A DNA stretch of 42,443 nucleotides, taken from assembly GCA_025358115.1 (NCBI GenBank), contig JANYKQ010000025.1:1-42443 (forward strand). The letters run 5' to 3'. The notes under the pieces are model-generated. The model was not told where the DNA came from. It saw only the letters and a list, made by a program, of their open reading frames with translations, and searched no databases. This stretch comes from Methanomicrobiales archaeon (lineage in GTDB: Archaea; Halobacteriota; Methanomicrobia; Methanomicrobiales; Methanospirillaceae). Positions 1,276-20,495 of the stretch are shown here, one piece after another; positions within the stretch are counted from its first letter, which is position 1; every line of letters starts with the position of its first letter. A program made the position numbers and the translations under genes.

Positions 1276-1896
1276 TTACGTCAAAGACATCCCTTCGCCG
1301 ATATCCTTGAGCAGGTACTTGATATCGATCCAGATGATCAGTTCGTTCTTCTCGTGCTCCTTGTCCCGGACCTTCTTCTTGATGATGCCGAGGATCGCAG
1401 TATCTTCGTTCGCATCTGCAGCCGATGTCTTGTCGATATCACTTAAGTCAAAGGTTGAGACCGAGGTAACATCGTCGACCATGATCCCGGTCTTGGCCCG
1501 GGTGATCTTCTCATCCAGTACGATGATCCTGCTGTTCTCCTCCCGCACCTCAGTAGTTGCAGTAATATGCAGGCGTTCTTTTAAGTCGACGATGGTGGTG
1601 ATCTCGCCCCGGAGGTCAATGATGCCCTTCATATATGAGGCACTGTTTGGGAGCTGGGTGATGGTGGTGTACTCCACGACTTCCTTGACATCGAAAAGGT
1701 CGACTGCATAATGCTCGTTGCCGAGCAGGAACTCAACGACCTGGAGCATCCCCTTCTCGTGTTTTCCTGCCTTCTTGTCCTTTATCGCCTGCGTTTTTTC
1801 AGCTGATTCCTGGCCCTGTGCGACCGGGGGGGATGAGGGGTGGTCTCCCTCCTCATCGGTTGGATGGGTTACTTTTGGCATGTCAGTATCCCCCAT
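1276..1896 (-). CDS. cheW: CheW chemotaxis coupling protein
   Basis: CheW is the cytoplasmic adaptor that links chemoreceptors to the CheA kinase. The first 50 residues are polar and probably disordered. From about residue 50 comes the CheW beta-barrel, with VEFLLGNEHYAVDL, VKEVVEY, the loop MKGIIDLRGEITTIVDLKER typical of the family, and a late IIWIDIKYLLKD strand. The chosen ATG (1896) shares its A with the stop codon of the upstream receptor gene (TGATG), a usual coupling overlap; a GTG two codons earlier is possible. No cheA, cheY or cheB lies nearby, so the partner kinase must be encoded elsewhere. Its 3' 147 bases are about 90% identical to the partial cheW at the right end of the window. 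Confidence 0.93.
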   Translation of the reverse strand: MGDTDMPKVTHPTDEEGDHPSSPPVAQGQESAEKTQAIKDKKAGKHEKGMLQVVEFLLGNEHYAVDLFDVKEVVEYTTITQLPNSASYMKGIIDLRGEITTIVDLKERLHITATTEVREENSRIIVLDEKITRAKTGIMVDDVTSVSTFDLSDIDKTSAADANEDTAILGIIKKKVRDKEHEKNELIIWIDIKYLLKDIGEGMSLT

Positions 1897-4800
1897 CAGC
1901 ACTTGAATTTCGAGACTTCTTTGGTCACTTTGTCAACTATGTTGTTCACATTGCCAATGACCTTTGAGATCTGGTCAATGGCAGCAGCCGACTCCTCGCT
2001 TGCAGCCGCAGCGTCCGTGGACTCCTTGGCCGTGCTCTGCATCAGGCCCCCGACTTCATTGACACTGGCTGTCACTTCTTCAACGGAAGCTGCCTGTTCT
2101 TCAGCCGCTGCTGCGACATCGCTGATATTCTTGCTTACCTGGTCAATCGACTCGACAATCTTGGTGAAACTGTTGAGCGTGTCCTGCAGGGCTTCGCTGC
2201 CGGTCTTGACACCGGTGTTTGACGAAGCAACCGCATCGACAGCATGGTTGGTCTGCGTCTGGAGGTTGTTGATCATCTCGGCAATCTTCTCGGCCGATGC
2301 CCGTGACTCAACGGCAAGCGACTTGACTTCGGTTGCAACGACTGCAAACCCGCGTCCTGCATCTCCCGCCCGGGCTGCTTCTATGGCTGCGTTGAGGGCT
2401 AACAGGTTCGTCTGGTTGGCGAGGTCAGTAATGAGGCTGACAATCTCGCTGATCTTGTCCATCTGTCCTTTGATCTCCAGGATAATGGTGTTGACCTCAT
2501 TGGAGGACTTGGTAATGCCCTGCATACCGTTCTCAGTCTTGTGGGCAAGGTCCATTCCTTCCTTACTATATGTCGTTGTGTCCTGCACGAGTTTTGCCGT
2601 CACATCCGCACGGGTTGCGACTTCCTGGATGGTGCGGGAGAGATCTTCCATTGCCTTCTGGACCTGCTCGATACCCGCCATCGACTTCTCGACATTGGTG
2701 CTGACGGCGCTCGTGTTCTTTGCAACCTGTCCAGCACCGGCCGTGACTTCCTCCACGCTGGCATTGGCCTCTTCAGCGCCGGCCGCAAGGTCGGTAACCT
2801 GCGAACCAATGTTGGTCACCGCAGCCGAGACCGCGATACCTATGTTGTTCAACGCTTCCTTGAACGCTAACCAGTCTCCGGGTACCTTGAGGTTCGGGTC
2901 CACCCGGGTGGTGAAGTCCTGCGTTGCATAACCCTTTGAAACCCTGAGGGCCTCGTTGACCGGCTCAATGACCGAGTCGAGCGTCTGGTTGACCCCATCA
3001 ACAATCTTCTTGTAATCACCGGTATGCCTGCTGGCATCGGCACGGGTTTTTAACTTGCCTTCGTCCGCTGCCTTTGCCAGCATGCCGGCATCGGCCACGA
3101 GTGCATTGACTGCGTCGATACAGTTGTTGAGATTGTTCTTGATCTCGTTGAAGTCACCATTGTAATTGTCGGTAATCTTTGAGGGGATGTCTCCTTTGGA
3201 GATCCGGTCAACATATTCGGCAGCCACATTGAGCGGTCCTATCACGGAGTCAAGGCAGTTGTTCACGCCAATGACGATCCTCTGGTAGTCGCCCAAGTGC
3301 TTGCTTGCGTCAGCCCGGGTGTCGAGTTTGCCATCAACGGCGGCCTTTGCCAGCATGTTCGCATCAACCACGAGTGCGTTGATGTTGTCGATACAGTTGT
3401 TGAGGTTATTCTTGATGACGTTGAAGTCGCCGTTGTACGGGTCTGTTATCTTCGGGGGAATTGCTCCCTTGCTGATCTTGTCCACGTAATCTGCGGCAAC
3501 GTTGAGCGGCCCGATGACCGCGTCAAGGCAGTCGTCCACACCCTGCACAATCTTCCGGTAATCACCGTTGTGTCTGCTCGCGTCCGCCCGGGTCGCAAGT
3601 TTCCCGTCAATTGCTGCCGTCCGGAGCATGCCGGCATCTGAAACCAGTGCATTGACCGCGTCGATACAGTTGTTAAGGTTGTTCTTGATCTCGTTGAAGT
3701 CCCCGTTGTAGTTGTCGGTGATTCGTGCCGGTATATCACCTTTGGAGATGCGGTCAACATATTCGGCTGCCACGTTGAGCGGCCCAATCACGGAGTCAAG
3801 GCATTCATTGACACCCTTGACGATCTTCTGGTAGTCGCCCTGGTGCCTGCTGGCATCAGCCCGTGTGTCGAGTTTTCCTTCAACTGCAGCTTTTGCGAGC
3901 ATGTTCGCGTCGACGACAAGCGCGTTTATGTTGTCAATACAGTTGTTGAGATTATTCTTGATTACATTGAAGTCACCACTGTACGGGTCGGTGATCTTCG
4001 GGGGAAGTGCTCCTTTGCTGATCTTATCAACGTAATCTGCTGCCACGTTGAGCGGCCCGATCACGTATTCAAGACAGTTGTTCACACCGGTAACGATCTT
4101 CCGATAATCGCCCTGATGCCTGCCGGCATCCGCCCGGGTCGCAAGTTTGCCCTCGGTTGCTGCCTTTTCGAGCATCACTGCATCAGCCACAAGGGCATTG
4201 ATATTGTCGATACAGTTGTTGAGGTTGTTCTTGATCTCGTTGAAATCGCCGTTGTAGTTGTCGGTGATCTTCTTGGGGAGATCACCTTTACTGATGCGGT
4301 CAACATATTCAGCAGCAACGTTGAGGGGACCGATTACGGCATCGAGCGTTCCATTGACCCCTTCCACAATCTTCTTGTAATCGCCCTTGTGTTTGCTGGC
4401 ATCCGCCCGGGTATCAAGTTTTCCTTCTACTGCTGCCTTCGAGAGCATGTTGGCATCGGTGACCAGTGCACGGAGGCTGAGGGTTATGGTGTTGAGAGCC
4501 GGTACAATCTCGTCTTTGTCATCCCGGACTTTTAAGTCTGTGGTAAGATCGCCATCAGCAATCTTTTTCATGGTACCGACAATGAACTTCTGCAATTCGT
4601 CGGAAAAACTGTCCATGGTCTCGGCCATCTCCCCGATTTCGTCCTTCCTCTTCAGGCTGAGACGATTGCCGAGATGACCTTTTTTCATCTCGTTCAGGCC
4701 TTCAGCAACTTTCTCGACCGGCCCGGTGATGCTCTTTGAGAGATAGAGCGCGATTCCGATGCCGATGATGATGGCTATAATGACGGCGATTATCATCTGC

Positions 4801-5372
4801 GTCATCGCAGCCCCGGATTCCGTGTCAGAACTCTTATCCAATGCATCTGCTGCATTGGTATTGAAATCAAACAGATCATTCATATCTTTGACAGCAGCTG
4901 CACGAGCGAGAACCAGCGGGCTGCCATCAGCAAAATCTGCTGTTACATCGGCGGTCTTCCCCGCCTTCGCATCGTCCATCGTCTTTTGGACATTCTGTTT
5001 AAAGGATGCGTAGTCGGTTTCGAATTTTGCCTGTATCGCTTTTTCATCAGTACTAGCGGGGGATGCCTTGTAGTCCGCAAAACTTTTGTCTATAGTGGCG
5101 ATCAGGGCCGGCATGCTCACATCAATGGCACTTCGCGATTCCGGTACAAACGCATAGCGAAACAGGTCGCCCCGTACCTGTTGTAACCCTGAATCAACAG
5201 CATTTAACTGGGTTATGGGGATAAGATTTTCTTTGTATGTTGCATCCTGCCCCGCCTTGATTGTTGTCATTCCGGTATATCCTATAAACGCAACAACCGC
5301 CATCAGTAAAAGCACAATAAGAAACCCTCCCAGGAGTTTCTTCCCGATTTTCATATCATCAATGAAACTCAT
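1896..5372 (-). CDS. Methyl-accepting chemotaxis protein with poly-HAMP-like repeats
   Basis: A 1158-aa chemoreceptor. Transmembrane helices at about residues 14-32 and 192-212 flank an extracytoplasmic helical sensor domain of about 155 residues (4HB-like). A HAMP domain follows at about 213-265. Residues 302-756 consist of five head-to-tail 91-residue units and a diverged sixth, each looking like two HAMP modules (for example [19 protein letters not shown]). The C-terminal signalling domain has the hairpin tip [18 protein letters not shown] near residues 985-1000 and Glu/Gln-rich methylation helices ([29 protein letters not shown]). It would bind CheW and CheA. At 1158 aa it is about twice the usual length (500-700), the difference being the repeats. 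It is the first gene of a pair with cheW, divergent from the kinase operon. Confidence 0.95.
3105..4469 (-). repeat. Five tandem 273-bp coding repeats in the MCP gene
   Basis: Five in-frame units of exactly 91 codons start at residues 302, 393, 484, 575 and 666; a diverged sixth starts at 757. They alternate in type. Units 1, 3 and 5 carry [11 protein letters not shown] and [11 protein letters not shown]. Units 2 and 4 carry [11 protein letters not shown] and [11 protein letters not shown] (unit 2 has Ser for the Asn). The A-B-A-B-A order suggests growth by duplication of a 546-bp two-unit block. Confidence 0.9.
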
Positions 5373-5657: not shown

Positions 5658-8600
5658 ATGGCTGTGGAAAAATTCCCTGATGAAATTTCCGCTATCCGGA
5701 CCATGCTCTCTGAGCATCCGGAGGGATTGACGATTCGCAGCATCTCGGCAATGCTTGGCATGAATCGCAATTCCACAGCAAAATACTTGGACATCCTCCA
5801 GATGCAGGGAGGGGTAACTTTCCGGAGAAGCGGCCCGGCCAAGATCTATTGCCTTGCCGATAAACTGCCCGCAGCAGCGGTCCTGAAACTGGCAAAAAGC
5901 CATGTCATTATTTTTAATCATGACCTGTCTGTTACAGATATCAATGATTCATTCAGCCGTTTATTAAAAATTTCAAAAAAAGAGATTATCGGAAAGACTC
6001 TGGGTCATCTGCCATTTGCGGTGCAGAACCTTCCTGAATTGCGGACACTGATCCGGGATGGTGTGCGGGGAAGTGAATCCCGGACTTCAACACTCATAAC
6101 GATAGGGGATCGTGCGATTCCATGTAACCTTGCGTGCAGCCCGGTATTTTTTGAGAATGGAAATAATGGGGTCTCCCTGGTAATAGATCTCGGGTCGGAG
6201 GCAAAGGACAGGGAGATTACCGGTAATTATGCCGACGATTCCCTTGCTGAACTGGATGTGTCAGAATATATCTGCCGGTTCGCACCGGATGGAACCTTCA
6301 CCTACGTCAACAAGGCGTACTGTGACCTCCTGCACAAAACAAAAGCTGAATTCATCGGTCATATCTGGCGACCTACACTTCCGGAAAGCGAGGTGCGAAA
6401 GATCAAATCCTGTCTCCATGCACTGGACCCGGTGCACCCAGTCGTATCGCTGGACATCCGGGCAATCATGCGGACGGGGGATTCCCAGTGGCAGCGCTGG
6501 AAATTCCGCCTTCTGACCGATTATGACGGGCATTCTGCCGGGTACCAGTGCACCGGTCTTGACATCACCGAGTTAAAAAAACTCGAACAAAAGACCAACA
6601 AGGGTGCCGAAGAGATGGAGACCTTCATCCGGGAGCGCAAGGCCGAGATCCAGGACTTAAACAAGCAGATCTATGATGAGATCGCCAGCCACGAGAAGAC
6701 ACATTTCCAGCTCCAGTTCACCCAGTTCGCCATGGACAAGGCCTCGTACATGATCATGTGGATCACCCGCGAGGGACGGTTTGTGTACATGAACAAGGAA
6801 GCCCAGAATGTGCTGGGGTACCAGTACCGCGATGTGATCACGAAAAAATTCCCGGATCTCATTGCCGGTTTTTTTTCATTTCCCTGGGACGAGATCTGGG
6901 AAACCATAAAACGGGACCGGCAGTTTACGCTGGAGACTGCTCTAAAAACCAACAGGGGAACAGAGATCCCGGTTGAGATGGTCTTCAATTACCTTGAGTT
7001 CAAGGAGAAACATTACTGCTGCTGTTTTGCGCGGGATATCACCGGGCGCAAAGAAGCAGAGGAGGCATTGCGGCAGAGCGAGCAGAAATACCGGGACATT
7101 TTTGAAAAATCGGTATCCGGACTATTCAAAACTACCCCGGACGGCTGTCTTATCGATGCAAATGATGCATTCGCCCGCATGTATGGCTATAGCGGTGCCA
7201 CGGAGATTCTGGCAGCTGGCCTCGATGTTGGCAGGGATCTTTACGCCCGCCCGGAAGACCGCAATGAAATGCTCAAGCTCCTTGCGGAAAAAAGTAAAGT
7301 GGAAAACTTTGAGACCCGTCACATTAAACGGGACGGAACAGCGTTCTGGGTTGCGATCACGGCCCGGACCATCCGGGACAATGACGGGAATGTGGCTTTT
7401 TATGAAGGTACCTTTGTTGATATTACCGGGCGTAAACTGGCGGAGAATTCACTGCGCAACAGTGAAGCCCGCTTGAACACGCTGATCAAAACAATTCCTG
7501 ACCTTATCTGGCTGAAGGATAAAGACGGTATCTATCTCTCCTGCAACCCTGTGTTCGAGCGATTATATGGTGCGAAAGAGATAGACATTGTCGGAAAAAA
7601 CGATTACGACTTTGTCGATCGCATCCTTGCCGATTTCTTCCGGGAACATGATCAGAACGCGATCGAGGCCGGCAAGCCCACCAGCAACGAAGAGTGGCTC
7701 ACCTTTGCTGATGATAGCCATCGTGCCCTGATCGATACCATCAAGACACCTATGTACGATGATCGCGGAACACTCATCGGTGTGCTTGGAATCGGGCGCG
7801 ATATTACCGAACGCAAACGGGCGGAAGATGCACTTCACGAAGTTGCCCGGTACACCCGTAACCTGCTGGAGTCCAGCCTGGACCCGATGGTGACAATCTC
7901 TGCGGAAGGCCGGATCATGGATGTGAACACGGCGACCGAGTGGGCAACCGGGTATTCAAGAGAGAACCTTATCGGGACCGATTTCTCGGACTATTTCATG
8001 GTTCCGGAGAATGCCCGTAAAAGCTATCTCCAGGTGTTTGAAAAAGGGGTTGTGCGGGATTATCCGCTTGAGATAAAAAATCGCGACGGAACAATCCGGA
8101 ATGTCTTGTATAATGCAACTATCTACCGTGACAGTTCAGGATCCGTCAAGGGTGTTTTTGCCGCAGCCCGTGACATCACCGAACGCAGGAAGGCAGAAAC
8201 AGAGCTGCAGCTGCATGGGGAGATTGTGCAGAACCTGGCTGAAGGCGTTGTGATGATCCGGATCAGTGACGGTACTATTGTGTATGCCAACCCGCGTTTT
8301 GAAATAATGTCCGGTTATTCTCCCGGCGAACTGAACGGCAGGCATATAAGCACTATCAATGCCCCGGATGGAAGAAGTCCCGAAACGGTTGCGAACGAGA
8401 TCATCAGCAATCTCAGACAAACGGGGTTGTGGAGCGGGGATGTACTCAATATCAGGAAAGACGGGACAATGTTCCGGTGTCACGCAACCGTATCAGCGTT
8501 TGACCATCCGCAGCATGGCCCGGTATGGATATCGGTGCACCTGGATATCACTGAACGAAAGCAGGCTGAAGATGAAATTTTCTTTAAAAACCTCCTCCTC

Positions 8601-9626
8601 TTAACCCAGCAGGAGACATCACCTGACGGTATCCTCGTGGTTGATGAAAGGGGAAAAATTCTTTCGTTCAACCGGCATTTTGCCGGTGTGTGGGATATTC
8701 CACAAGAGGTAATTGCATCCGGTCTCGATGAACTGGCTATCAGTGCTGTCCAGGACAAACTCGTTGATCCTGAGGAATTCCTTGCGCGGGTCCGTCATCT
8801 CTATACTCACAAGACCGAGAAGAGCCATGATGAGATCCTCTTGAAAGACGGGAGGATCCTGGACAGGTATTCTGCCCCTATGTTCGGTGACCGGAAAAAA
8901 TATTTCGGCAGGGTGTGGTATTTCCGGGATATCACCGAACGCAAGCGGGCTGAAGAAGCACTGAAAATGGCAAACAGGAAGCTGAACCTCTTCTCTACGA
9001 TCACCCGGCACGATATCATCAACCAGATGACCCTGCTGCGGGGGTTTGCACGCCGGCTGGAACGGGAACTGCCTGCCCATAATCTCGATGAGTATTTCCA
9101 GAAGATCAATACTTCGGCAGACCGGATCTCTGCCATGATACAGTTTACCAAGACCTATGAGAACATCGGGATCAATCTTCCTGTCTGGCGGGATGTCGGG
9201 AGCCTTGTGGATGCCGCGGTAAAAGACGTTGAGCTCGGAAATGTACGGCTTGATAATGAGATTCCTGCCGGAACAGAAGTGTTTGCCGACCCGCTGATTG
9301 CCAGTGTATTTCATAACCTGCTGAATAATGCCCTGGTCCTGGGTGGGCCGGTTTCGGCTATCAGCTTCTCTTCAGAAGATCTGAACGGGAACCGGCTCAT
9401 AGTCTGCGAAAATGATGGCAGCGGAGTGCCTGCAGAAGAGAAGGAGAAGATCTTCGAACTCGGGTATGGCAGGAATACCGGTTTTAACCTGTTTCTCTTC
9501 CGGGAGATTCTTGGCATAACCGGCATTACCCTCAAAGAGACCGGAATGCCCGGCCGGGGGTTACGGTTTGAGATTACTGTGCCGGAAGGGATGCACAGAT
9601 ACCTGTCTCAGGGAAGTCCGGAATGA
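5658..9626 (+). CDS. HTH/eight-PAS sensor histidine kinase
   Basis: 1322 aa, no membrane segment, so cytoplasmic. Residues 8-66 form a winged-helix-like domain (LTIRSISAMLGMNRNSTAKY, then a basic wing FRRSGPAKIY). Eight PAS domains follow at about 77-175, 198-304, 352-463, 475-592, 603-719, 730-845, 851-968 and 975-1097, most ending in the DITERK-type linker, with a coiled coil at 305-350. The kinase core has His1118 in TRHDIINQ, the N box around Asn1220-1224 and G1 ENDGSGVP (1251-1258). The G2 box is odd: TGFNLFLF replaces the usual TGLGLALA, so ATP binding may be weak or lost. It is first in a run of overlapping genes; its stop overlaps the next start as ATGA. A DNA-binding domain on a kinase suggests direct transcriptional output. 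PAS ligands are unknown. Confidence 0.9.
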   Translation: MAVEKFPDEISAIRTMLSEHPEGLTIRSISAMLGMNRNSTAKYLDILQMQGGVTFRRSGPAKIYCLADKLPAAAVLKLAKSHVIIFNHDLSVTDINDSFSRLLKISKKEIIGKTLGHLPFAVQNLPELRTLIRDGVRGSESRTSTLITIGDRAIPCNLACSPVFFENGNNGVSLVIDLGSEAKDREITGNYADDSLAELDVSEYICRFAPDGTFTYVNKAYCDLLHKTKAEFIGHIWRPTLPESEVRKIKSCLHALDPVHPVVSLDIRAIMRTGDSQWQRWKFRLLTDYDGHSAGYQCTGLDITELKKLEQKTNKGAEEMETFIRERKAEIQDLNKQIYDEIASHEKTHFQLQFTQFAMDKASYMIMWITREGRFVYMNKEAQNVLGYQYRDVITKKFPDLIAGFFSFPWDEIWETIKRDRQFTLETALKTNRGTEIPVEMVFNYLEFKEKHYCCCFARDITGRKEAEEALRQSEQKYRDIFEKSVSGLFKTTPDGCLIDANDAFARMYGYSGATEILAAGLDVGRDLYARPEDRNEMLKLLAEKSKVENFETRHIKRDGTAFWVAITARTIRDNDGNVAFYEGTFVDITGRKLAENSLRNSEARLNTLIKTIPDLIWLKDKDGIYLSCNPVFERLYGAKEIDIVGKNDYDFVDRILADFFREHDQNAIEAGKPTSNEEWLTFADDSHRALIDTIKTPMYDDRGTLIGVLGIGRDITERKRAEDALHEVARYTRNLLESSLDPMVTISAEGRIMDVNTATEWATGYSRENLIGTDFSDYFMVPENARKSYLQVFEKGVVRDYPLEIKNRDGTIRNVLYNATIYRDSSGSVKGVFAAARDITERRKAETELQLHGEIVQNLAEGVVMIRISDGTIVYANPRFEIMSGYSPGELNGRHISTINAPDGRSPETVANEIISNLRQTGLWSGDVLNIRKDGTMFRCHATVSAFDHPQHGPVWISVHLDITERKQAEDEIFFKNLLLLTQQETSPDGILVVDERGKILSFNRHFAGVWDIPQEVIASGLDELAISAVQDKLVDPEEFLARVRHLYTHKTEKSHDEILLKDGRILDRYSAPMFGDRKKYFGRVWYFRDITERKRAEEALKMANRKLNLFSTITRHDIINQMTLLRGFARRLERELPAHNLDEYFQKINTSADRISAMIQFTKTYENIGINLPVWRDVGSLVDAAVKDVELGNVRLDNEIPAGTEVFADPLIASVFHNLLNNALVLGGPVSAISFSSEDLNGNRLIVCENDGSGVPAEEKEKIFELGYGRNTGFNLFLFREILGITGITLKETGMPGRGLRFEITVPEGMHRYLSQGSPE

Positions 9627-9994
9627 TCTCAATCCTTCTTGTGGACGATGATTCTGACCAGCTGGATATTGCCCGTATATACCTTCAGGAGCAGCGCGGG
9701 TTTCGCATTGAGTGTTTCACGTCTGCAAAAGAGGCACTGCGCCGGCTGCAGGAGACCGCATTCGATGTCATTGTTGCCGATTACCTGATGCCGGAAATGA
9801 ACGGGATCGAATTGTTAAAAAAAGTTCATGGAAAGAAAAAAAACATCCCGTTCATTATCTTCACGGCCAAAGGACGGGAAGAGATTGTCATAGACGCTCT
9901 CAATGCAGGGGCAGATTTCTATATCCAGAAAGGCGGGGATCCGTTAGCCCAGTTTGCCGAGCTCACCTCAGTTATCCGGAAGGTTGTCCGGTAG
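9623..9994 (+). CDS. Single-domain response regulator (REC), possibly the N-terminus of the next ORF
   Basis: A 123-aa receiver domain that would accept phosphate from a histidine kinase. The acidic pocket is DDD (residues 8-10), the phosphoacceptor is Asp53 in VADYLMPEMNG, the conserved Thr is in FIIFTAKGREE, and the Lys is in DFYIQKGGDP. The start ATG overlaps the stop of the upstream kinase gene (ATGA). Its own TAG stop (9992-9994) is followed in the same frame, without a gap, by codons for HRAEEALEKSEERY, the linker that normally joins REC to PAS in this family. It may be a true stand-alone REC or the first domain of a REC-PAS-PAS-kinase split by one nonsense codon. Confidence 0.85.
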   Translation: MISILLVDDDSDQLDIARIYLQEQRGFRIECFTSAKEALRRLQETAFDVIVADYLMPEMNGIELLKKVHGKKKNIPFIIFTAKGREEIVIDALNAGADFYIQKGGDPLAQFAELTSVIRKVVR

Positions 9995-11455
9995 CACAGG
10001 GCTGAAGAAGCCCTGGAAAAAAGCGAGGAGCGGTACCGGCGGATTACCGAAGGCCTCACAGATTACCTGTACACGGTCCGCATCCGGGATGGCAGGGCTG
10101 TGGCAACAACGCACAGCGCAGCCTGTCTCGCAGTTACCGGTTACTCTGCCGAGGAGTTTGCAGCGGACCCCTACCTCTGGATACGCATGGTATATCCTGA
10201 GGATCGTGATCGTGTTATCCGGCATTTCAGCGGGGTCCTGTCCGGAAACCCGGTTCCCCCGGTTGAACACCGGATTGTGCGAAAGGACGGGCAGGTGCGC
10301 TGGGTCCAGGACATCCCGGTTCTTCAGCTGGATCCCACCGGCAACCTTGTCTCCTACGACGGGGTGATCAAAGATATCACCGATCGCAAGGAAGCAGAAG
10401 AGGCCCTGCAGCGCCTTACCAAATTCCAGGAGAGCGTGATTGCCAATGCCCGGGTCTGGCTGAGCGTTTTAGACCCGGCTGGAAAAATCCTGGTATGGAA
10501 TACCGCTGCCGAGGAGATTAGCGGCTTTCCCCCGGAAGAAGTTCTCGGGGGAAACGGGATCTGGAAACTCCTCTACCCGGATAAAGAGTACCGTAAGCAG
10601 GTCACCGGTACCATCACCCGGATCATCCGTGACCGGAAGTTTCCCGAGACCTTCGAGACTACGATTCGCACAAAGCAGGGAATGCAAAAGGTGATTTCCT
10701 GGAACACACGGGGGATTCCGGACTCCGGAGGAAAAATATCAGATTATATCGCCATCGGTGTGGATGTAACAGATCGCACGCTGGCCCAGAAGGCGCTTGC
10801 TTCAGCCAACAAAAAACTCAACCTCCTTTCCAGTATCTCACGGCATGACATCAACAACCAGCTCGCGGTGCTTGTGGGTTTCCTCCGCATTCTGGAAAAG
10901 AAACTGCCCGATCCTTCGTTTGGGGAGTATTTCTCGAAGATTGCGAATGCCGCAGACCGAATCTCTTCCATGATCCAGTTCACGAAAATTTATGAGAGCA
11001 TAGGGGTCAAAGCTGCGGTCTGGCAGGACTGCCATACTGTCGTGGATACTGCGACAGCACTGGCATTGCCCGGTCATGTGGTCGTGAAGAATGATCTTCC
11101 TGCCGGTGCAGAAGTGTTCGCCGACCCCCTGATTGTCAGGGTCTTTTACAACCTTCTGGATAATGCGGTGCGGTATGGTGAGAAGATTACAAAAATACGG
11201 TTCTCTGTTGAAGAAAACGGAGACGGTTTCATCCTGGTCTGTGAGGATGATGGTGTGGGTATACCGGCTGATGAAAAAGAGAAGATCTTCGAGCGGGGAT
11301 TTGGCAGGAACACCGGGCTGGGTTTAGCCCTTGCCCGCGAAATTCTTGATATCACCGGCATTACCATCAGGGAGACCGGACAGCCGGGGAAGGGCGCCCG
11401 GTTTGAAATGGTGGTTCCCAAAGGCATGTGGCGTCATTCAGGAGATGGTGCGTAA
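9995..11455 (+). CDS. PAS-PAS histidine kinase lying in frame behind a TAG codon
   Basis: The frame of the preceding REC ORF continues for 486 codons after its TAG. It encodes the linker HRAEEALEKSEERY, a PAS domain at about 14-130 (DYLYTVRIRDGRAV), a second PAS at about 142-262 (LSVLDPAGKILVWN) and a kinase core with His284 in SRHDINNQL, N box NLLDNAV, G1 CEDDGVGIP and G2 TGLGLALAREIL, all intact. No ATG, GTG or TTG lies in frame between 9995 and the GTG at 10100, and that GTG falls inside the first PAS domain. As a separate gene it would therefore make a truncated PAS. The simplest reading is a 610-residue REC-PAS-PAS-kinase interrupted by TAG, through mutation, sequencing error or readthrough. 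The start given here is the first codon after TAG, not a proven initiation site. Confidence 0.75.
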   Translation, partial: HRAEEALEKSEERYRRITEGLTDYLYTVRIRDGRAVATTHSAACLAVTGYSAEEFAADPYLWIRMVYPEDRDRVIRHFSGVLSGNPVPPVEHRIVRKDGQVRWVQDIPVLQLDPTGNLVSYDGVIKDITDRKEAEEALQRLTKFQESVIANARVWLSVLDPAGKILVWNTAAEEISGFPPEEVLGGNGIWKLLYPDKEYRKQVTGTITRIIRDRKFPETFETTIRTKQGMQKVISWNTRGIPDSGGKISDYIAIGVDVTDRTLAQKALASANKKLNLLSSISRHDINNQLAVLVGFLRILEKKLPDPSFGEYFSKIANAADRISSMIQFTKIYESIGVKAAVWQDCHTVVDTATALALPGHVVVKNDLPAGAEVFADPLIVRVFYNLLDNAVRYGEKITKIRFSVEENGDGFILVCEDDGVGIPADEKEKIFERGFGRNTGLGLALAREILDITGITIRETGQPGKGARFEMVVPKGMWRHSGDGA

Positions 11456-14400
11456 TGCCAGATGTTATGCGGGTTATCTATGTTGATGATGAACCCGCGC
11501 TGCTTGAGATCGGTAAGCTGTTCCTCGAGGATACCGGGGCATTTTCTGTTGTGACAAGTGATTCTGCCTCTGCTGCCTTAGCCCGGCTCAAAAAAGAGCA
11601 GTTCGACGCCATCATCTCGGATTTCCAGATGCCCGGCATGGATGGCATCCAGTTCCTGACAGAGGTGCGGAAAAACTACGGAAAGGTCCCGTTCATCCTC
11701 TTCACCGGCCGGGGCAGGGAAGAGATTGTCATCCAGGCGATCAACAAGGGGGCGGATTTCTATCTCCAGAAAGGGGGAGAACCGCAGTCGCAGTTTGCCG
11801 AGCTTTCGCACAAGATCCGGACGGCTGTGGAGCGTCGCATCTCCGACAATGCGTTTCACGCGAGCGAGGACCGATACCACTCGCTGGTAGACACCATGCA
11901 TGACAGCATGGTAGTCTACCAAGCCGTTGCCGATGGCGAGGACTTTGTCATCCTGGAGTTCAACAAGGCTGCGGAAAAAGTGGAAAATATCTCCCGGTCC
12001 GAGGTGATCGGGCACAGGGTGACCGAGGTATTTCCCGGGGTACTGGAGTTTGGGATCCTTGACGTATTCCGGCGTGTCTGGCGCACCGGCACACCGGAAT
12101 CGTTTCCCATCTCGCTCTACAAGGATAACCGGATCTCCGGGTGGCGGGATAATTATATCTATAAACTACCCACAGGCGAGATTGTAGCTGACTACAGCGA
12201 TGAGACTGCACGAAGGCAGGCAGAAGAAGCCCTGCAGAAGAGCGAGGAGAAATCCCGGCTCGTACTGGAAGCCACCAATGATGGCATATGGGACTGGAAC
12301 GTCCCTTCGGGTACCGCGTTTTTCAGCCCCCGCTGGTATACGATGATCGGGTATGAACCCGGAGAGATGCCCGGTACCTATGCCACATGGCGATCTCTGC
12401 TCCACCCGGAGGATCTGGGTCCGACAGAACAGAAGATACAGGATCATATCGTTCGAAAAGACGAGGGTTATTCCGGAGAATTCCGGATGCGGACAAAGCA
12501 GGGGACCTGGAAATGGATCCTTGCCCGGGGAAAAGTAGTGGAACGGGATGCGGCGGGGAACGCGGTACTGATGGTGGGAACGCATACCGACATCGATGAA
12601 CTCAAAAAGAGAGAGAAAGAGATCCTGGATACACGGAACTTTTTAACCAGTATCATTGAACAAAGCCCCAATCCCCTGTGGATCTCCGATGAAAAAGGAA
12701 CACTGGTTCAACTGAATCAGGCTTTGTGCGATATGCTGCAGGTCACCCCGGAAGAGGTGATTGGCAGGTATAATGTTTTTGAAGATACGATTGTTGAAGA
12801 ACAGGGAAAGATGCCCCTTGTCAGATCCGTTTTTGATGAGGGGAAAAGTGTCACGTTTGATCTCGATTATGATTCATCCCGGCTGAAATCGCTCTCACTT
12901 GAACGATCCACGTCAATCAGTCTTCAGATCATCATCTTTCCCATCCGGGACAGCACCGGAAAGATCACGAACGCGGTTATCGAAGAGATTAATAATACCG
13001 GACGCAGGCAGATTGAACGGGAACTGGAAAGAAAGAACCAGGAACTGCTGGCCTCTTATGAGCAGCTGACCGCGTCAGAAGAGGAACTCCGTGGCAACCT
13101 GGAAGAACTGACCCGGCAGGAAAGGGTAATCAAGGAGAGCGAGGCCGGTCTCCGTGCAATCCTTGATGCAACGCCGTTTCCCGTTGCCTTAGTCGATCTC
13201 CAGGATAACAACATCGATTTCTGGAGCCGTAGCGCCCTCACCCTTTTCGGGCATACGGCTCCCACCGCGGCTGAGTGGTATCTGCTGGCATACCCGGATC
13301 CCAGGTACCGTCAGGAAGTGATTGACCGGTGGAAACCATGCCTGGAACAGGCAAAACTATCCGGCCAACCGGTCAATACGGGAGAATACCGGGTTACCTG
13401 CCGCGATGGTTCAGTACGTATCTGCGAGTTGTACGCCACGTTTCTGTCTGACAAACTCATCGTCACCTTCAATGAAATCACCGACCGCAAAAATGTTCAA
13501 GAGGCACTGCAGGCCAGTGAGGCGCGCTATCGTCTCCTTTTCGAAGGAGCAGCCGAGGGGATTTTAGTTGCGGACATTGCTACGGAAAAATTCCTGTACG
13601 CCAATAATGCCATCAGCCGGATGCTGGGGTATTCCCCGGAAGAGCTTACGGCAATGCGGCTGGAAGACATACACCCGCCAAAAGAGCTTGAAGATATACG
13701 GAACGAGTTCCTTGCTCTGTCACGCGGCGAAAAGAAAGTGGCAACCGATATCCCGTGCCTGAGAAAAGACAAGACCGTTGTTTATGCCGATATTGTTACA
13801 TCCATGGTTATGATTGACAACCGGCCGTGTAATGTCGGCTTTTTTACGGATATTACTGAACGAAAAACGACCGACATGCGGTTGAGGAATGCACTTTCCG
13901 AGGCGCAGCGTTTCCGCGAGGCACTGGATCAAGTCTCCGCGTACATTTACATAAAGGATCCCCAGTCCCGTTACGTCTATGCGAACCGGCCAACCCTGGA
14001 GTTGTTCGGTTGTTCCGCTGAAGAACTGGCAGGCAGTGACGATATCCGTTTTTTCCCCCTGGATACCGCAAAACATCTGCGGGAAGTGGACTCGCGTGTG
14101 CTGCAGGGTGAGCATACTTCAGAAGAGATCGAAATTGCCGGTATCAAAAACGGGCGGCGGGTGTACTGGGAAGTCAAGACCCCGATCTTTGGAGGGCCCG
14201 GAAACACGGAGATTGTAGGACTGATGGGTATCTCAACCGATATCACACAACGCAAGCGGATGGAGGAAGCACTGCGCGAGAGCGGGGACCGGTTCCATGG
14301 TATTTTTGACACAATCCCCAGCGGGGTTGCCATCTATGAGGTGAGAAATGACGGGGCTTTTGGGAAAGATTACATTATTAAGGACTTCAACAGGACTGCG

Positions 14401-16890
14401 CTGGAGTTAGAGGGGAAGACAAAAGCCGACGTGATCGGAAAGAGTCTTTTTGATCTGCGCCCTGCAATCGATGAATATGGATTAATCCCGGTCTTCCGGC
14501 AGGTATGGGAGACCGGTGTTCCGTCATATTTCCCCCAGAAAGTGTACCTTGATGAGAACTTTTCCCGCTGGTACGAGAACCGGGTATTCCGGTTAGACAG
14601 CGGTGAAATAGTCGCAGTCTATGACGATATCACCGAGCGGAAACGTGCAGAAGAAGATCTCCATCGACACAAGAATGAACTGCTGACGCAGAATGAGGAA
14701 CTGCACAGGATCCAGCAATCTCTCGAAGTGTCCCATGACCAGTATGTTAACCTCTATGACCTGGCGCCCGTGGGATACATCACCTCATCAGATAAGGGGC
14801 TGATCCTCAAAGCCAACCTCACCGCAGCCTCGATGCTTGCCACAGAGCGCAGCACGCTGCTCAACTGTCCGGTGACCCGGTTTATTGTACCGGAGGACCA
14901 GGACATTCATTACCTGTGCCGGAAGCGTCTCGAAGAGACGAACCGTCAGCAGTCGTGTGAGCTGAGGATGCTGAGGAAAGGAACCTCTCCTTTCTGGGCG
15001 CAGATAATTATGGAGCGGGTCTCTACAGATGCGGGAGAGAAGGCTGATGTCAGTCAGATGATTCTGGACATCACCGAGCGTAAAGAGGCACAGGAGGCCT
15101 TGCAAAAGAGCGAGCAGGAGTTCCACACCCTGGCCGAAGCTATGCCGCAAATCGTCTGGATCACCCGGGCTGATGGCTGGAATATCTATTTCAACCAGCA
15201 ATGGGTGGATTACACCGGCCTCACGCTTGAGGAAAGTTACGGGCATGGCTGGAATGTCCCCTTCCATCCGGACGACCGGCAGCGCGCCTGGGATGCATGG
15301 CAACGGGCAACGCAATATAATGATGTATATTCACTGGAATGCCGTCTGCGGCGTGCAGATGGCGTCTATCGCTGGTGGCTGATCCGCGGCGAACCACTGC
15401 TCGGTGCGAGCGGGGAGATTCTCAAATGGTTTGGTACCTGCACCGATATCGAAGAGATAAAACGGGCAGAAGAGGCATTGCGTGAGAGTGAGGAGAAATG
15501 GCGTTCTCTGGTGAATGTCCTGCCGGACTATATCTCACTGCTCGACAGGAATGGCACGATCTCATTCCTGAATCAGTATGCAGAGGGATTTGGAGAAAAC
15601 GAGGTTCTCGGGAGCAGTGTATACCAGTATCTTTCCGTGATCTCCCGGGATAATTTTGAAAAGGAGATTACCGCATGCCTGGATTCCGGGAAAATGCGCA
15701 GGTTTGAGCACACCGCTGAGGGAGACCAGGGACTCATGAGGGATTATGAAGATTTTCTTGTCCCGGTTATTGAAAAGAATAAAGAGGACCGGATTCTGGT
15801 CGTATCGAGAGACATCACCGAACGCAAACAGGCAGGAGAGGCGCTTGCCGAGTCCAATGCCTATCTCAACAACCTGTTCAATTACGCCAATGCCCCGATC
15901 ATTGTCTGGGATCCGTCATTTGTCATCACCCGGTTCAATCATGCATTCGAGAACCTGACCCTCCGTTCAGAACAGGAAGTTATCGGGAAGCATCTCGATA
16001 TCCTGTTTCCGGATGAGAGCAAGGACCGGTCGCTCTTTGAGATCAAAAAGACCCTTGATGGTGTACGCTGGGAGTCTGTTGAGATCCCGATCCTTACCCG
16101 GGACGGGAGTATCCGGACCGTGCTCTGGAACTCGGCTAATATCGTCGCTCCTTCCGGCAGTATTCTTTCAACTATTGCCCAGGGTATTGATATTACCGAC
16201 CGCAAAGAGGTGGAACGAGCATTCAAAGCAGCCAATAAAAAACTCAATCTCCTCTCTTCGATTACCCGGCACGACATCAACAACCAGATGACCGTTATCC
16301 GGGGCTACACAACCCTGCTCCAGAAGAAACAGTCCGATCCTTCATTTGCCCAATATTACGAGAAGATCAACACTTCTGAAGAGCAGATCGCTTCCATGAT
16401 CCAGTTCGCAAAAATGTATGAGGATATCGGTGTCAACGCCCCGGTATGGCAGGATGTCGGCACCCTTGTGGATCTGGCTGCAAAAGATGCAACACTGGGA
16501 GATATCCATATCGTTAATGAGATCCCCGGCGGCACAGAAATCTTTGCTGATCCTCTCATTGCCCGGGTGTTTTACAACCTGCTGGATAATGCAGTCCGTC
16601 ACGGCGGCAGGGTTACCACAATCCGGTTCACCGCAAAAGCAGAGAACCGGGAATGGATCATCGTGTGCGAAGATGATGGTGAGGGTGTCTTAGTTGAAGA
16701 CAAGGAGAAGATCTACGAACGCGGGTACGGGAAGAACACCGGCCTGGGCCTCTTCCTCTCCCGGGAAATTCTTGCGATTAATGGCATTACCATTAAAGAG
16801 ACTGGCGAGCCGGGTAAAGGTGCCCGGTTCGAGATCTCGGTGCCCAGAGGTGCGTGGCGGATAACCGGAACCGGCCCCGGGAGGAACTAA
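11455..16890 (+). CDS. Giant REC/eleven-PAS histidine kinase
   Basis: 1811 aa, cytoplasmic. The start is the ATG that overlaps the previous stop as TAATG; an ATG four codons later is possible. An N-terminal REC domain (about 1-125) has phosphoacceptor Asp56 in ISDFQMPGMDG and Lys in DFYLQKGGEP. Eleven PAS domains follow between about residues 140 and 1580, with coiled coils near 515-565 and 1065-1090. PAS 1 and 7 are one subtype (SGEIVA and related ends), and PAS 9 is of the WITRADGWNIYFNQQW type. The kinase core is complete: His1606 in TRHDINNQM, N box NLLDNAV, G1 CEDDGEGV and G2 TGLGLFLSREIL. Putting REC at the front of a kinase suggests that it is controlled by, or returns phosphate to, another kinase of the cluster. 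Eleven PAS domains in one chain is exceptional. Confidence 0.92.
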   Translation: MPDVMRVIYVDDEPALLEIGKLFLEDTGAFSVVTSDSASAALARLKKEQFDAIISDFQMPGMDGIQFLTEVRKNYGKVPFILFTGRGREEIVIQAINKGADFYLQKGGEPQSQFAELSHKIRTAVERRISDNAFHASEDRYHSLVDTMHDSMVVYQAVADGEDFVILEFNKAAEKVENISRSEVIGHRVTEVFPGVLEFGILDVFRRVWRTGTPESFPISLYKDNRISGWRDNYIYKLPTGEIVADYSDETARRQAEEALQKSEEKSRLVLEATNDGIWDWNVPSGTAFFSPRWYTMIGYEPGEMPGTYATWRSLLHPEDLGPTEQKIQDHIVRKDEGYSGEFRMRTKQGTWKWILARGKVVERDAAGNAVLMVGTHTDIDELKKREKEILDTRNFLTSIIEQSPNPLWISDEKGTLVQLNQALCDMLQVTPEEVIGRYNVFEDTIVEEQGKMPLVRSVFDEGKSVTFDLDYDSSRLKSLSLERSTSISLQIIIFPIRDSTGKITNAVIEEINNTGRRQIERELERKNQELLASYEQLTASEEELRGNLEELTRQERVIKESEAGLRAILDATPFPVALVDLQDNNIDFWSRSALTLFGHTAPTAAEWYLLAYPDPRYRQEVIDRWKPCLEQAKLSGQPVNTGEYRVTCRDGSVRICELYATFLSDKLIVTFNEITDRKNVQEALQASEARYRLLFEGAAEGILVADIATEKFLYANNAISRMLGYSPEELTAMRLEDIHPPKELEDIRNEFLALSRGEKKVATDIPCLRKDKTVVYADIVTSMVMIDNRPCNVGFFTDITERKTTDMRLRNALSEAQRFREALDQVSAYIYIKDPQSRYVYANRPTLELFGCSAEELAGSDDIRFFPLDTAKHLREVDSRVLQGEHTSEEIEIAGIKNGRRVYWEVKTPIFGGPGNTEIVGLMGISTDITQRKRMEEALRESGDRFHGIFDTIPSGVAIYEVRNDGAFGKDYIIKDFNRTALELEGKTKADVIGKSLFDLRPAIDEYGLIPVFRQVWETGVPSYFPQKVYLDENFSRWYENRVFRLDSGEIVAVYDDITERKRAEEDLHRHKNELLTQNEELHRIQQSLEVSHDQYVNLYDLAPVGYITSSDKGLILKANLTAASMLATERSTLLNCPVTRFIVPEDQDIHYLCRKRLEETNRQQSCELRMLRKGTSPFWAQIIMERVSTDAGEKADVSQMILDITERKEAQEALQKSEQEFHTLAEAMPQIVWITRADGWNIYFNQQWVDYTGLTLEESYGHGWNVPFHPDDRQRAWDAWQRATQYNDVYSLECRLRRADGVYRWWLIRGEPLLGASGEILKWFGTCTDIEEIKRAEEALRESEEKWRSLVNVLPDYISLLDRNGTISFLNQYAEGFGENEVLGSSVYQYLSVISRDNFEKEITACLDSGKMRRFEHTAEGDQGLMRDYEDFLVPVIEKNKEDRILVVSRDITERKQAGEALAESNAYLNNLFNYANAPIIVWDPSFVITRFNHAFENLTLRSEQEVIGKHLDILFPDESKDRSLFEIKKTLDGVRWESVEIPILTRDGSIRTVLWNSANIVAPSGSILSTIAQGIDITDRKEVERAFKAANKKLNLLSSITRHDINNQMTVIRGYTTLLQKKQSDPSFAQYYEKINTSEEQIASMIQFAKMYEDIGVNAPVWQDVGTLVDLAAKDATLGDIHIVNEIPGGTEIFADPLIARVFYNLLDNAVRHGGRVTTIRFTAKAENREWIIVCEDDGEGVLVEDKEKIYERGYGKNTGLGLFLSREILAINGITIKETGEPGKGARFEISVPRGAWRITGTGPGRN

Positions 16891-19653
16891 ATGGCGGAAA
16901 AAAAGAAGAGTGTACCGGTGAAGAAGGATGAAATAACCCCGGGTCCCGGACGAACATTACGGGACGGAGCAGACACGCAACCAGCACTCTCCCCTTCCGT
17001 TCGCGATTGCAACGGACACCCCCCTCCTGATCCGTCCGGGAAATGCCCGGAGCATCCGGACGAGTTCAATGCTACGAATGATGTTGTGGAAAACTGCGAG
17101 TCCTCACTTCTGAACAGCATACTTGAGAGCATGGATTCGGCAGTTTTTTCCGTGGATCGTGAATACCGCTACACCTCCTTTAACTCTCACCATGCAGACG
17201 TGATGAAACGGCTCTACGGGGCTGATATACGGCCGGGTACGAGCCTCTTTGAGTACCAGTCGGTCACCGGGGACCGCATCCTGGCAAAACGTAACCTGGA
17301 CCGGGCACTGGCCGGCGAATTGGTAACCGTGGAGGCCTTCTCGGGAGAAGAGTCGCGTTCACGGCGCTATTTTGAAGTGGCCCACCGCCCGGTAAAAGGG
17401 GCGGACAACACGATCGTGGGCGTTGTGGTATCTGCCCAGGATATAACCGGGCTCAGGCGGGCAGAAGAGGCGGTCCGGGAGAGCGAAGAGCGTTACCGGC
17501 GGATCTGCGAGGGGCTTACCGACTACCTCTATACGGTACAGGTACTGGATGGCCGGGCTGTCAGCACGGTACATGGCGCTGCCTGCGTGGCAGTGACTGG
17601 CTTTACGGCAGAAGAGTTTGCCCGGGATCCCTATCTCTGGATAACCATGGTTTTAGACGAGGATCGCGAACGCGTTATCAGCCATATCCATGCGGTCCTG
17701 AAAGGAGAACCCGTTCTCCCGGTGGAACACCGGATTGTGCGAAAGGACGGGCAGGTCCGCTGGGTGCCGGATACCCCCATCCTTCACCGGGACGCTGATG
17801 GCAGGCTGGTGTCGTATGACGGGGTAATAAAAGATATTACCGCAACAAAACGGGCAGAAGAGGCACTGCAGGAGAGCGAGCGTACATACCGCAATCTCTA
17901 TGAGTTAGCCCAGGTGGGATTGTTTGAAACAAGCCTCCGGGACGGTACTGTTATTGCATGCAACGAACGGTATGCCACCCTTGCAGGTTTTTCTTCGGTA
18001 GAGGATGCGATTGGAAAGGACATTGTCCACCTTTATGCAGATCCCGGCGATCGAAAAGAAGTAAGCCGGATTCTCCATGAAAAGGGACGTATCGATGATC
18101 ATATTGTCCGGTTTAAAAACCATCAGACCGGGCGTCCGTTCTGGGCACAGTTCTCTGCCCGAATCAACACAAAAGAGGATGCAGCTGAAGGAACCATCAT
18201 CGACATATCCGAACAGAAACGCGCAGAACAGGAGTTATCCGCAAAGCACGAGGAACTGATGGCAGCCTTTGAGCAGCTGACCGCAACCGAAGAAGAGCTC
18301 AAAGGGCAGTTCGATGCGCTCGCAGAGTCTGAACAGACCATACGGATAAATGAAAACAGGTTGCGGATGTCGCAGAAGATCGGGCGGATCGGGGCCTGGG
18401 AATATTCCTTTGAGACTAACAGGATCTGGGGTTCGGCGGAAGGACTTCGTATCTTCGGGTACCCTGCGGTGGCGGGAGATTTTCCCATTGGTGATATCGA
18501 AGCCTGCATCCCGGAACGGGAGCGGGTTCATAAAGCTCTTGTTGACCTCATAACGGAAGGTAAGGATTACAATCTTGAGTATGCGATCAATCCCGCAGAC
18601 GGTTCGGCAAAAAAAGTAATTCATTCCATTGCCCGTATCGATAACGATGCAGAGGGTAAACCCCTCAGGGTTGTCGGGGTTATCCAGGATATTACCGAAC
18701 GTAAGCGGGCAGAAGAAGAAGTGCAGCATCTCACCCGATTCCAGAAGAGCATCATTGACAACGCCCTGGTCTGGTTAAGTGTCCTTGACCCGGTGGGAAA
18801 GATCCTTGTCTGGAATGCGGCTGCGGCCGAAATAAGCGGTTACCGCTCCGACGAAGTAATCGGCTCCAGTGTGATCTGGAAGCAGCTCTACCCGGAAAAA
18901 GAGTACCGTCAGCAGGTCACCTCCACCATAAACCGGATTATCCGGGAACATAAGTATCTTGAAAACTTCGAGACGGTCATCCGCACAAAGGATGGTAATG
19001 AGAAGATCGTCTCATGGAACACCAAAGCTTTGCCCGATGCAACCGGAACAACATCAGATTATATCGTTATCGGGATGGATGTCACTGATCGTCACCGGGC
19101 AGAGGAAGCGCTGCGAACAAGCGAGAGCAAGTACCGCCTTCTCGTTGAGAATATCCATACAGCAGTTGTGGTCCTCAATCCGGACACAAGCATACTGATG
19201 ATAAACAGGACTGCGCTTGACCTGCTGGGGCTTACCCTGGATGAGGCAATTGGCAGGATTGCTTCCCATTCGTCGTGGCATTTCTCACGCGAAGACGGGA
19301 CTGTTCTTCCCCTTGCAGACTATCCGGTCAACCCGGTGCTTGCTACACAGAAACCGCTCAGGAATATGCTGATGGGCATCTTCCGACCGCGGAATCCGGA
19401 TACGGTCTGGGTACTGGTCAATGCAGATCCGGAGTATGATGAAAAAGGGATTGTCACCGCAGTCATTGTTACCTTTACTGATATCTCCGATCTGAAGCAG
19501 GCAGAAGAGCAGCTGCATAAGACCGTGGATGAACTCAAACGGTTCAACAACTTAACGGTGGACCGGGAACTGCGCATGATTGCCCTGAAACAGGAGGTCA
19601 ATGCCCTGCTGAAAAAAGCCGGGGAAGCGGAAAAGTACAGGAGCAGACCGTGA
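16891..19653 (+). CDS. Six-PAS protein without kinase domain
   Basis: 920 aa, cytoplasmic; the ATG follows the previous stop with no gap. After a polar, Pro-rich N-terminus (about 1-60) come six PAS domains at about 70-190, 197-325, 330-445, 490-610, 617-740 and 748-870. The chain ends in a coiled coil (ELKRFNNLTVDRELRMIALK) where sister proteins have the kinase. PAS 2 and PAS 5 closely resemble the two PAS domains of the kinase at 9995-11455 (shared DYLYTV, AACVAVTG/AACLAVTG, FARDPYLW/FAADPYLW, LSVLDPVGKILVWN/LSVLDPAGKILVWN). It probably acts as a sensory scaffold or binding partner, perhaps for the CheR encoded next, whose start overlaps its stop (GTGA). There is no sign of truncation; the terminal helix is the family's usual non-kinase ending. 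Confidence 0.88.
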   Translation: MAEKKKSVPVKKDEITPGPGRTLRDGADTQPALSPSVRDCNGHPPPDPSGKCPEHPDEFNATNDVVENCESSLLNSILESMDSAVFSVDREYRYTSFNSHHADVMKRLYGADIRPGTSLFEYQSVTGDRILAKRNLDRALAGELVTVEAFSGEESRSRRYFEVAHRPVKGADNTIVGVVVSAQDITGLRRAEEAVRESEERYRRICEGLTDYLYTVQVLDGRAVSTVHGAACVAVTGFTAEEFARDPYLWITMVLDEDRERVISHIHAVLKGEPVLPVEHRIVRKDGQVRWVPDTPILHRDADGRLVSYDGVIKDITATKRAEEALQESERTYRNLYELAQVGLFETSLRDGTVIACNERYATLAGFSSVEDAIGKDIVHLYADPGDRKEVSRILHEKGRIDDHIVRFKNHQTGRPFWAQFSARINTKEDAAEGTIIDISEQKRAEQELSAKHEELMAAFEQLTATEEELKGQFDALAESEQTIRINENRLRMSQKIGRIGAWEYSFETNRIWGSAEGLRIFGYPAVAGDFPIGDIEACIPERERVHKALVDLITEGKDYNLEYAINPADGSAKKVIHSIARIDNDAEGKPLRVVGVIQDITERKRAEEEVQHLTRFQKSIIDNALVWLSVLDPVGKILVWNAAAAEISGYRSDEVIGSSVIWKQLYPEKEYRQQVTSTINRIIREHKYLENFETVIRTKDGNEKIVSWNTKALPDATGTTSDYIVIGMDVTDRHRAEEALRTSESKYRLLVENIHTAVVVLNPDTSILMINRTALDLLGLTLDEAIGRIASHSSWHFSREDGTVLPLADYPVNPVLATQKPLRNMLMGIFRPRNPDTVWVLVNADPEYDEKGIVTAVIVTFTDISDLKQAEEQLHKTVDELKRFNNLTVDRELRMIALKQEVNALLKKAGEAEKYRSRP

Positions 19654-20495
19654 ACGGTGAGCTGGTACGGATTGTAAAGATCATGAGGGTAAAGCATGGC
19701 GGGGATATCTCCCGCTATGACGAATCCTTCCTCTTAAAATCTGTGGAGAAACGCATGGCGGCAACCTCGCGGGCTACGATGGCAGAGTATTGCACGTACC
19801 TGTCGGAAGATAATGGCGAGGCAGAAGCGTTCCTTCGATCGCTCAATATTACCTACAGCGAGTTTTTCCGGAACCCGCTCACCTTTGCCGTGCTGGAACA
19901 GAGGGTCCTGCCCCGGCTTATTGAAAAGAAGCTGGAGTCCGGGTCTGCAGAGATTCGCATCTGGTCGGCCGGGTGTGCCGCCGGCCAGGAGGTGTATTCG
20001 GTTGCCATCCTGTTGGATGAACTTCTCTTAGCACGGCAGATTTCTCTGGCGTATCGTATATTTGCAACCGATATCGCAGAAACTGCCCTGTCATCCGCAC
20101 GAAACGGCGTGTACGATGCGGCAGCCGTGCAGAACGTGCAGCTGAAACATATCCGTTCCAGTTTTTCCGAACAGAACGGGAGTTACACTATTGCCCGGCG
20201 CATCCGGGAGCGGATCGAGTTCTCGTTCTATGATCTCCTGGATGAGCGCTCCACCAGTCCCCCGGGAAGTATTTACGGCGATTTCGATCTCGTCTTCTGC
20301 AGCAACCTGCTCTTCTATTACACGCCGGCGATCCGGAAGTTTATCCTCAACAAGGTCTGCCATTCCCTGTCCGATGGCGGATACCTGGTAACCGGCGAGG
20401 CGGAACGCTCGATTTTAGAAACAATAAACCTGGATGAAATCTCTCCGATGAGTGGTATTTACCAGAAATCACAGGCCTGTAAGGTGATGATATGA
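19650..20495 (+). CDS. cheR: CheR-type protein-glutamate methyltransferase
   Basis: 281 aa. CheR uses S-adenosylmethionine to methylate glutamates on chemoreceptor helices. Visible motifs are the N-terminal helical domain with ITYSEFFRNPLTF, the SAM-binding loop IWSAGCAAGQEVYSVA, FATDIAETALSSARNGVY, and the late FCSNLLFYYTP. In most CheR proteins the last reads CRN rather than CSN and the loop ends GEE rather than GQE, so two usual residues differ. The GTG start overlaps the upstream stop (GTGA) and is preceded by AGGAG 8 bases away; an ATG 11 codons in is an alternative. It lies between a PAS scaffold and a hybrid kinase, with no cheB, so its target may be a neighbour's coiled coil or the MCP at 1896-5372. 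Confidence 0.9.
   Translation: MNGELVRIVKIMRVKHGGDISRYDESFLLKSVEKRMAATSRATMAEYCTYLSEDNGEAEAFLRSLNITYSEFFRNPLTFAVLEQRVLPRLIEKKLESGSAEIRIWSAGCAAGQEVYSVAILLDELLLARQISLAYRIFATDIAETALSSARNGVYDAAAVQNVQLKHIRSSFSEQNGSYTIARRIRERIEFSFYDLLDERSTSPPGSIYGDFDLVFCSNLLFYYTPAIRKFILNKVCHSLSDGGYLVTGEAERSILETINLDEISPMSGIYQKSQACKVMI

Follow-up and report, generated by a model that had tools for sequence, protein, structure and literature searches.

The domain orders listed for archaea in PMC5847659 include REC-(PAS)n-HisKA-HATPase. Here we describe a methanogen gene with the same order, REC-PAS-PAS-HisKA-HATPase, in which one in-frame TAG parts the REC domain from the rest. Two other kinds of gene resemble it. With nonsense pseudogenes in paralogue-rich families it shares a single stop, an otherwise intact frame and the lack of a matching stop in the relatives compared, although here the stop sits on a domain boundary, with a hairpin after it. 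With the pyrrolysine-decoding methylamine methyltransferase genes of methanogens it shares an in-frame UAG and a methanogen host, whereas here no PylS was found, UAG was not seen in homologues and the alignment column is variable. A published approach to stop-codon mining sets aside cases that lack homologues with the same stop, treating them as probable pseudogenes or errors of sequencing (PMC1914089); under that rule the cut kinase would be discarded. Our literature searches on stop codon readthrough, archaea and histidine kinases returned a match on Francisella only, and those on UAG, readthrough, archaea, pyrrolysine and Methanomicrobiales held no such kinase among the matches listed. The locus resembles ordinary decay of a gene from a large redundant family, or else an error of assembly, and not a new reading of the code.

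An interrupted sensor kinase gene

The window, by which we mean the whole stretch of DNA analysed, comprises bases 1-42443 of contig C2; the genome is a draft of 2.26 Mb in 97 contigs, listed as 70% complete. In a named genome collection, its best relatives are Methanomicrobiales, many of them under the name Methanoregula. The features relevant to the cut gene, all on the + strand, are as follows.

5658..9626, + strand: upstream gene, a multi-PAS histidine kinase of 1322 aa, whose TGA overlaps ATG 9623 of the REC frame
9623..9994, + strand: REC (receiver) frame of 123 codons plus the TAG stop, from ORF reading and Pfam
9992..9994, + strand: in-frame TAG in the REC-PAS linker, a sense codon in 121/121 ungapped rows of relatives and paralogues
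9995..11455, + strand: same-frame continuation with PAS, PAS, HisKA and HATPase_c, ending in TAA 11453-11455, with no start codon before 10100
9997..10015, + strand: possible hairpin with a 7-bp stem and a 5-base loop, starting 2 bases after the TAG, within the codons of the RAEEAL linker motif
10100..11455, + strand: longest possible restart frame, GTG start, 451 aa, with a 3-base ribosome-binding match and no spacing
11455..16890, + strand: next gene, REC plus a multi-PAS histidine kinase, with AGGAG ahead of an ATG that overlaps the kinase frame's TAA

The initial annotation read a REC ORF that ends at the TAG and a frame that continues into a PAS-PAS-kinase, and both ORF reading and Pfam agree. 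The REC piece carries a Response_reg match (4e-25), and the piece after the TAG matches PAS_3, PAS_9/PAS, HATPase_c and HisKA; all domains of a REC-(PAS)n-HisKA-HATPase protein lie in order in one frame, read as two halves around the interruption. Since 486 codons stay open in frame up to the TAA and show homology throughout to fused relatives, the open frame past the TAG is, on sequence grounds, not a product of chance. Both neighbours overlap the ends of the frame, so that its roughly 610 codons occupy the slot of one gene in a packed array. Many single REC chains of solved structure are similar in length to the REC frame (among the best 60 of 128 matches).

The claim that no start codon precedes the first PAS domain held in part. 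The first in-frame ATG, GTG or TTG past the TAG is indeed GTG 10100, at codon 36; its placement inside the domain needs amending, as the Pfam PAS_3 match begins at residue 40 after the TAG, just 3' of the GTG, and the codon would fall within the PAS fold only when the preceding strand is counted.

Comparison with relatives and paralogues

We searched 39 genomes of the genus, the window's own included, with the REC-to-kinase translation carrying an X at the stop, and obtained matches in 39/39. Among the 150 matches listed (more exist), 22 from other genomes extended from query residue 5 or below through residue 600 or beyond, and 0 of these had a stop. Judged from these alignments, the REC-PAS-PAS-HisKA-HATPase architecture is encoded as a single gene in the genus. 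Separate genes divided at the REC/PAS boundary, a state that the initial annotation had considered for close relatives, were seen in neither the best-match nor the kinase-biased set.

For the junction itself, we aligned the first 165 residues to 153 loci by tblastn, giving 126 rows that include duplicates and own-genome paralogues. Two rows are the window gene itself (present in two loci), three are gapped at the TAG column, and the other 121 all have a sense codon. Arginine predominates in these 121 rows (R 80), followed by Q 11, K 10, H 6, L 4, G 3 and M 2, with E, A, W, S and Y once each. At 140 codons from stop to stop, the window REC frame is the shortest of the 150 genus REC matches listed (more exist); the second-shortest has 166 codons and runs off a contig end. 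Across 116 distinct REC matches from the fetched loci, a stop lies within 20 codons of the TAG point in two only: the window gene and one divergent REC with its stop 20 codons further on. No close orthologue of the cut kinase was found among the relatives searched.

Internal stops elsewhere in the kinase family do occur, but not often. They were confirmed in three further genes of kinase type, one of them in the window's own genome. In the search with an X at the stop, four of the other 149 listed rows contain one TGA, which in three of them (G004:C190, G001:C121 and G004:C98) terminates the gene where the match ends. In the fourth row the TGA is internal and interrupts a kinase within its ATPase domain; the genome is assembled as a single contig of 2,542,943 bases (G010; L177, record position 318916). 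Among the other 149 listed genus REC rows, one REC-PAS gene has an internal TGA followed by an internal TAG, at positions 13589 and 14792 (G006, L215, contig C6). In the own genome, an internal TAG occurs in one of the other 127 kinase rows (a row is a stretch, and a gene can have several); this codon, at 27841-27843 on the minus strand of contig C16 (G000, L169), falls late in the ATPase domain of a truncated kinase remnant.

UAG in the window's genome

Reassignment or recoding of UAG, for instance to pyrrolysine, was raised in the initial annotation, and we regard it as the most improbable of the readings discussed here. The frame is open across the TAG, and the kinase remnant of the own genome supplies a second in-frame TAG. 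Across the window and 20 further own-genome stretches (L154-L173), TAG is also followed by somewhat longer open extensions than TAA or TGA is, with one-sided P of 0.02 to 0.06 over six length cut-offs. For frames of at least 150 aa, the median extension is 39 after TAG (n=19) compared to 18 and 18 for the other stops; for frames of at least 100 aa it is 34.5 (n=32, cut gene included) compared to 18 and 17 (P 0.018), and the difference persists at cut-offs of 200 to 350 aa (P 0.03 to 0.06). Antisense shadow frames as the cause of these longer extensions were not fully borne out at the longer cut-offs. The extensions are a weak result against the nonsense reading.

Against recoding, the PylS profile (TIGR02367) was over its cut-off in 0/60 genomes, namely the own genome, 35 more from its genus and 24 from the order; each of the 60 gave weak sub-threshold matches, and 1/14 control genomes, presumably Methanosarcina acetivorans, exceeded it. 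None of the 33 tRNA-model matches in the own genome (about 70% complete) has a CUA anticodon; ARAGORN named 30 of them, and the other three, read by eye, are Met, Ile and Ala. Both the PylS search and the tRNA scan came out negative. In a 2011 BLASTP survey, archaeal pylS is confined to Methanosarcinales (PMC3037878), and the title of a later paper reports it in Methanomassiliicoccales. A pyl cluster could sit in the missing part of the genome because the assembly is incomplete, but given the relatives this is unlikely.

The genome also uses TAG as an ordinary stop. It terminates 21/244 non-overlapping frames of at least 150 aa in the window and 20 further stretches, and the listing of frames bears out the observation that those at 30451 and 42116 end with it. 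Five of nine scanned TAG-ended frames have a Pfam domain, and three reach or nearly reach the end of the profile: a chaperonin (profile 1-484 of 490), an arginase (2-279 of 280) and a DUF2070 protein (1-561 of 561). Eight of ten scanned extensions past a TAG have no Pfam match; the other two, both long and with a start codon inside, match a QueT transporter and, below cut-off, LysM. Whole-genome reassignment of TAG is opposed by the complete TAG-ended proteins and the eight domain-free extensions, and pyrrolysine recoding is very unlikely.

Competing explanations

We think it probable that a recent nonsense change has left a REC-only product in one of many paralogous sensor kinases, a reading based on the intact remainder of the gene and its fused relatives. 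The starting point would have been an ordinary REC-PAS-PAS-HisKA-HATPase gene of about 610 codons, a member of a large paralogous family in a Methanoregula-like methanogen, and one premature TAG would then have arisen in the linker that follows its receiver domain. The translated product would be a REC-only protein, with the PAS-PAS-kinase part unmade or made at trace level, and the kinase function of this copy would therefore probably have been lost recently. A random substitution in the 486 codons past the TAG has a chance of about 3.1% of creating a stop; because 0 stops are seen there, drift since the event has probably amounted to less than ~0.07 changes per site, assuming that the sequence is drifting, and the absence of further stops fits a recent event and equally continued selection. 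Against a nonsense change stand the infrequency of internal stops (1/149, 1/149 and 1/127 in the three listed sets), the position of the stop in an interdomain linker of, by our estimate, roughly 20 of 610 codons with REC left whole, and the stable hairpin that starts directly after the TAG. The next most likely explanation, clearly less probable than a nonsense change though far from negligible, is an error in the consensus or the assembly, or a strain variant present in the minority, with the true gene intact. The draft state of the genome (97 contigs, about 70% complete), the flawless remainder of the gene and the intact state of the relatives compared are consistent with it; on the other hand, an internal stop was confirmed in the single-contig genome G010 too, so real nonsense does happen in this family. 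Of the options put forward in the initial annotation, nonsense mutation or sequencing error emerges as the best supported, with sense codons at this position in the relatives compared and internal stops in a few other genes of the family.

Little support was found for a working split or a readthrough switch, though either is possible. In a working split, REC would be made from ATG 9623 and a shorter PAS-PAS-kinase from the internal start GTG 10100, which we consider unlikely. Starting at the GTG would retain all Pfam matches of the second half, and the break leaves the REC domain whole, but the ribosome-binding match at the GTG is 3 bases without spacing, compared to AGGAG ahead of ATG 11455. 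Scored against the anti-Shine-Dalgarno sequence, ATG 9623 does little better (3 bases, spacing 7), and the ribosome-binding argument is weak because this REC start also has only 3 bases and TTG 25256 has none. No other split REC of the subfamily appears among the 150 best genus matches listed, one short frame there ending at a contig edge. Programmed readthrough, in which UAG and a 3' hairpin would give REC alone plus a minority REC-kinase fusion, has a slimmer chance still, and so does its specific form, a species-specific leaky UAG stimulated by the hairpin and read by a near-cognate ordinary tRNA, setting the ratio of free REC to REC-kinase with no pyrrolysine involved. The one feature of the proposed switch that speaks for it is the hairpin (-13.7 kcal/mol), noticed after the fact. 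With codon use taken from nine window frames, 31/20000 synonymous codings of its nine codons, and 45/3000 in a twenty-codon version, were as stable; it is the strongest of 31 linker-motif sites, itself included, in the window and 20 own-genome stretches, and stronger than all 112 such sites of the other fetched loci. It is, however, a single instance sought once the stop was known; the 100-base fold is mildly unusual (z -2.0, with 8/200 shuffles equally stable), and the same stop at the same place is absent from all 121 ungapped rows compared. According to a review, archaeal readthrough is demonstrated for selenocysteine and pyrrolysine (PMC8211752). The post hoc hairpin keeps a small chance of readthrough alive. 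A transcription terminator was rejected as an explanation for the hairpin, since A and not T comes after it on the + strand.

If the change is plain nonsense, as we favour, the locus is another case of how the large families of sensor kinases in Methanomicrobiales turn over, and a kinase gene annotated from GTG 10100 would probably have no real start. If readthrough were true, this would be the first archaeal stop-codon switch known to us besides selenocysteine and pyrrolysine, the two cases named in that review (PMC8211752).

Surrounding genes

From 5658 to 41483, both strands carry a cluster of long histidine kinases rich in PAS domains. The cluster includes a CheR-like protein (19650-20495) as well as a 4HB_MCP-HAMP-GAF-kinase-REC-REC protein (20492-23512). 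Beside it, the minus strand encodes at 1276-5372 a CheW-like protein and a chemoreceptor in which six HAMP_2 stretches occur. Over 390 bases, the cut kinase's first PAS region (10022-10411) is 74% identical at the DNA level to a PAS region (17482-17871) of the 16891-19653 gene, suggesting that a domain was copied fairly recently.
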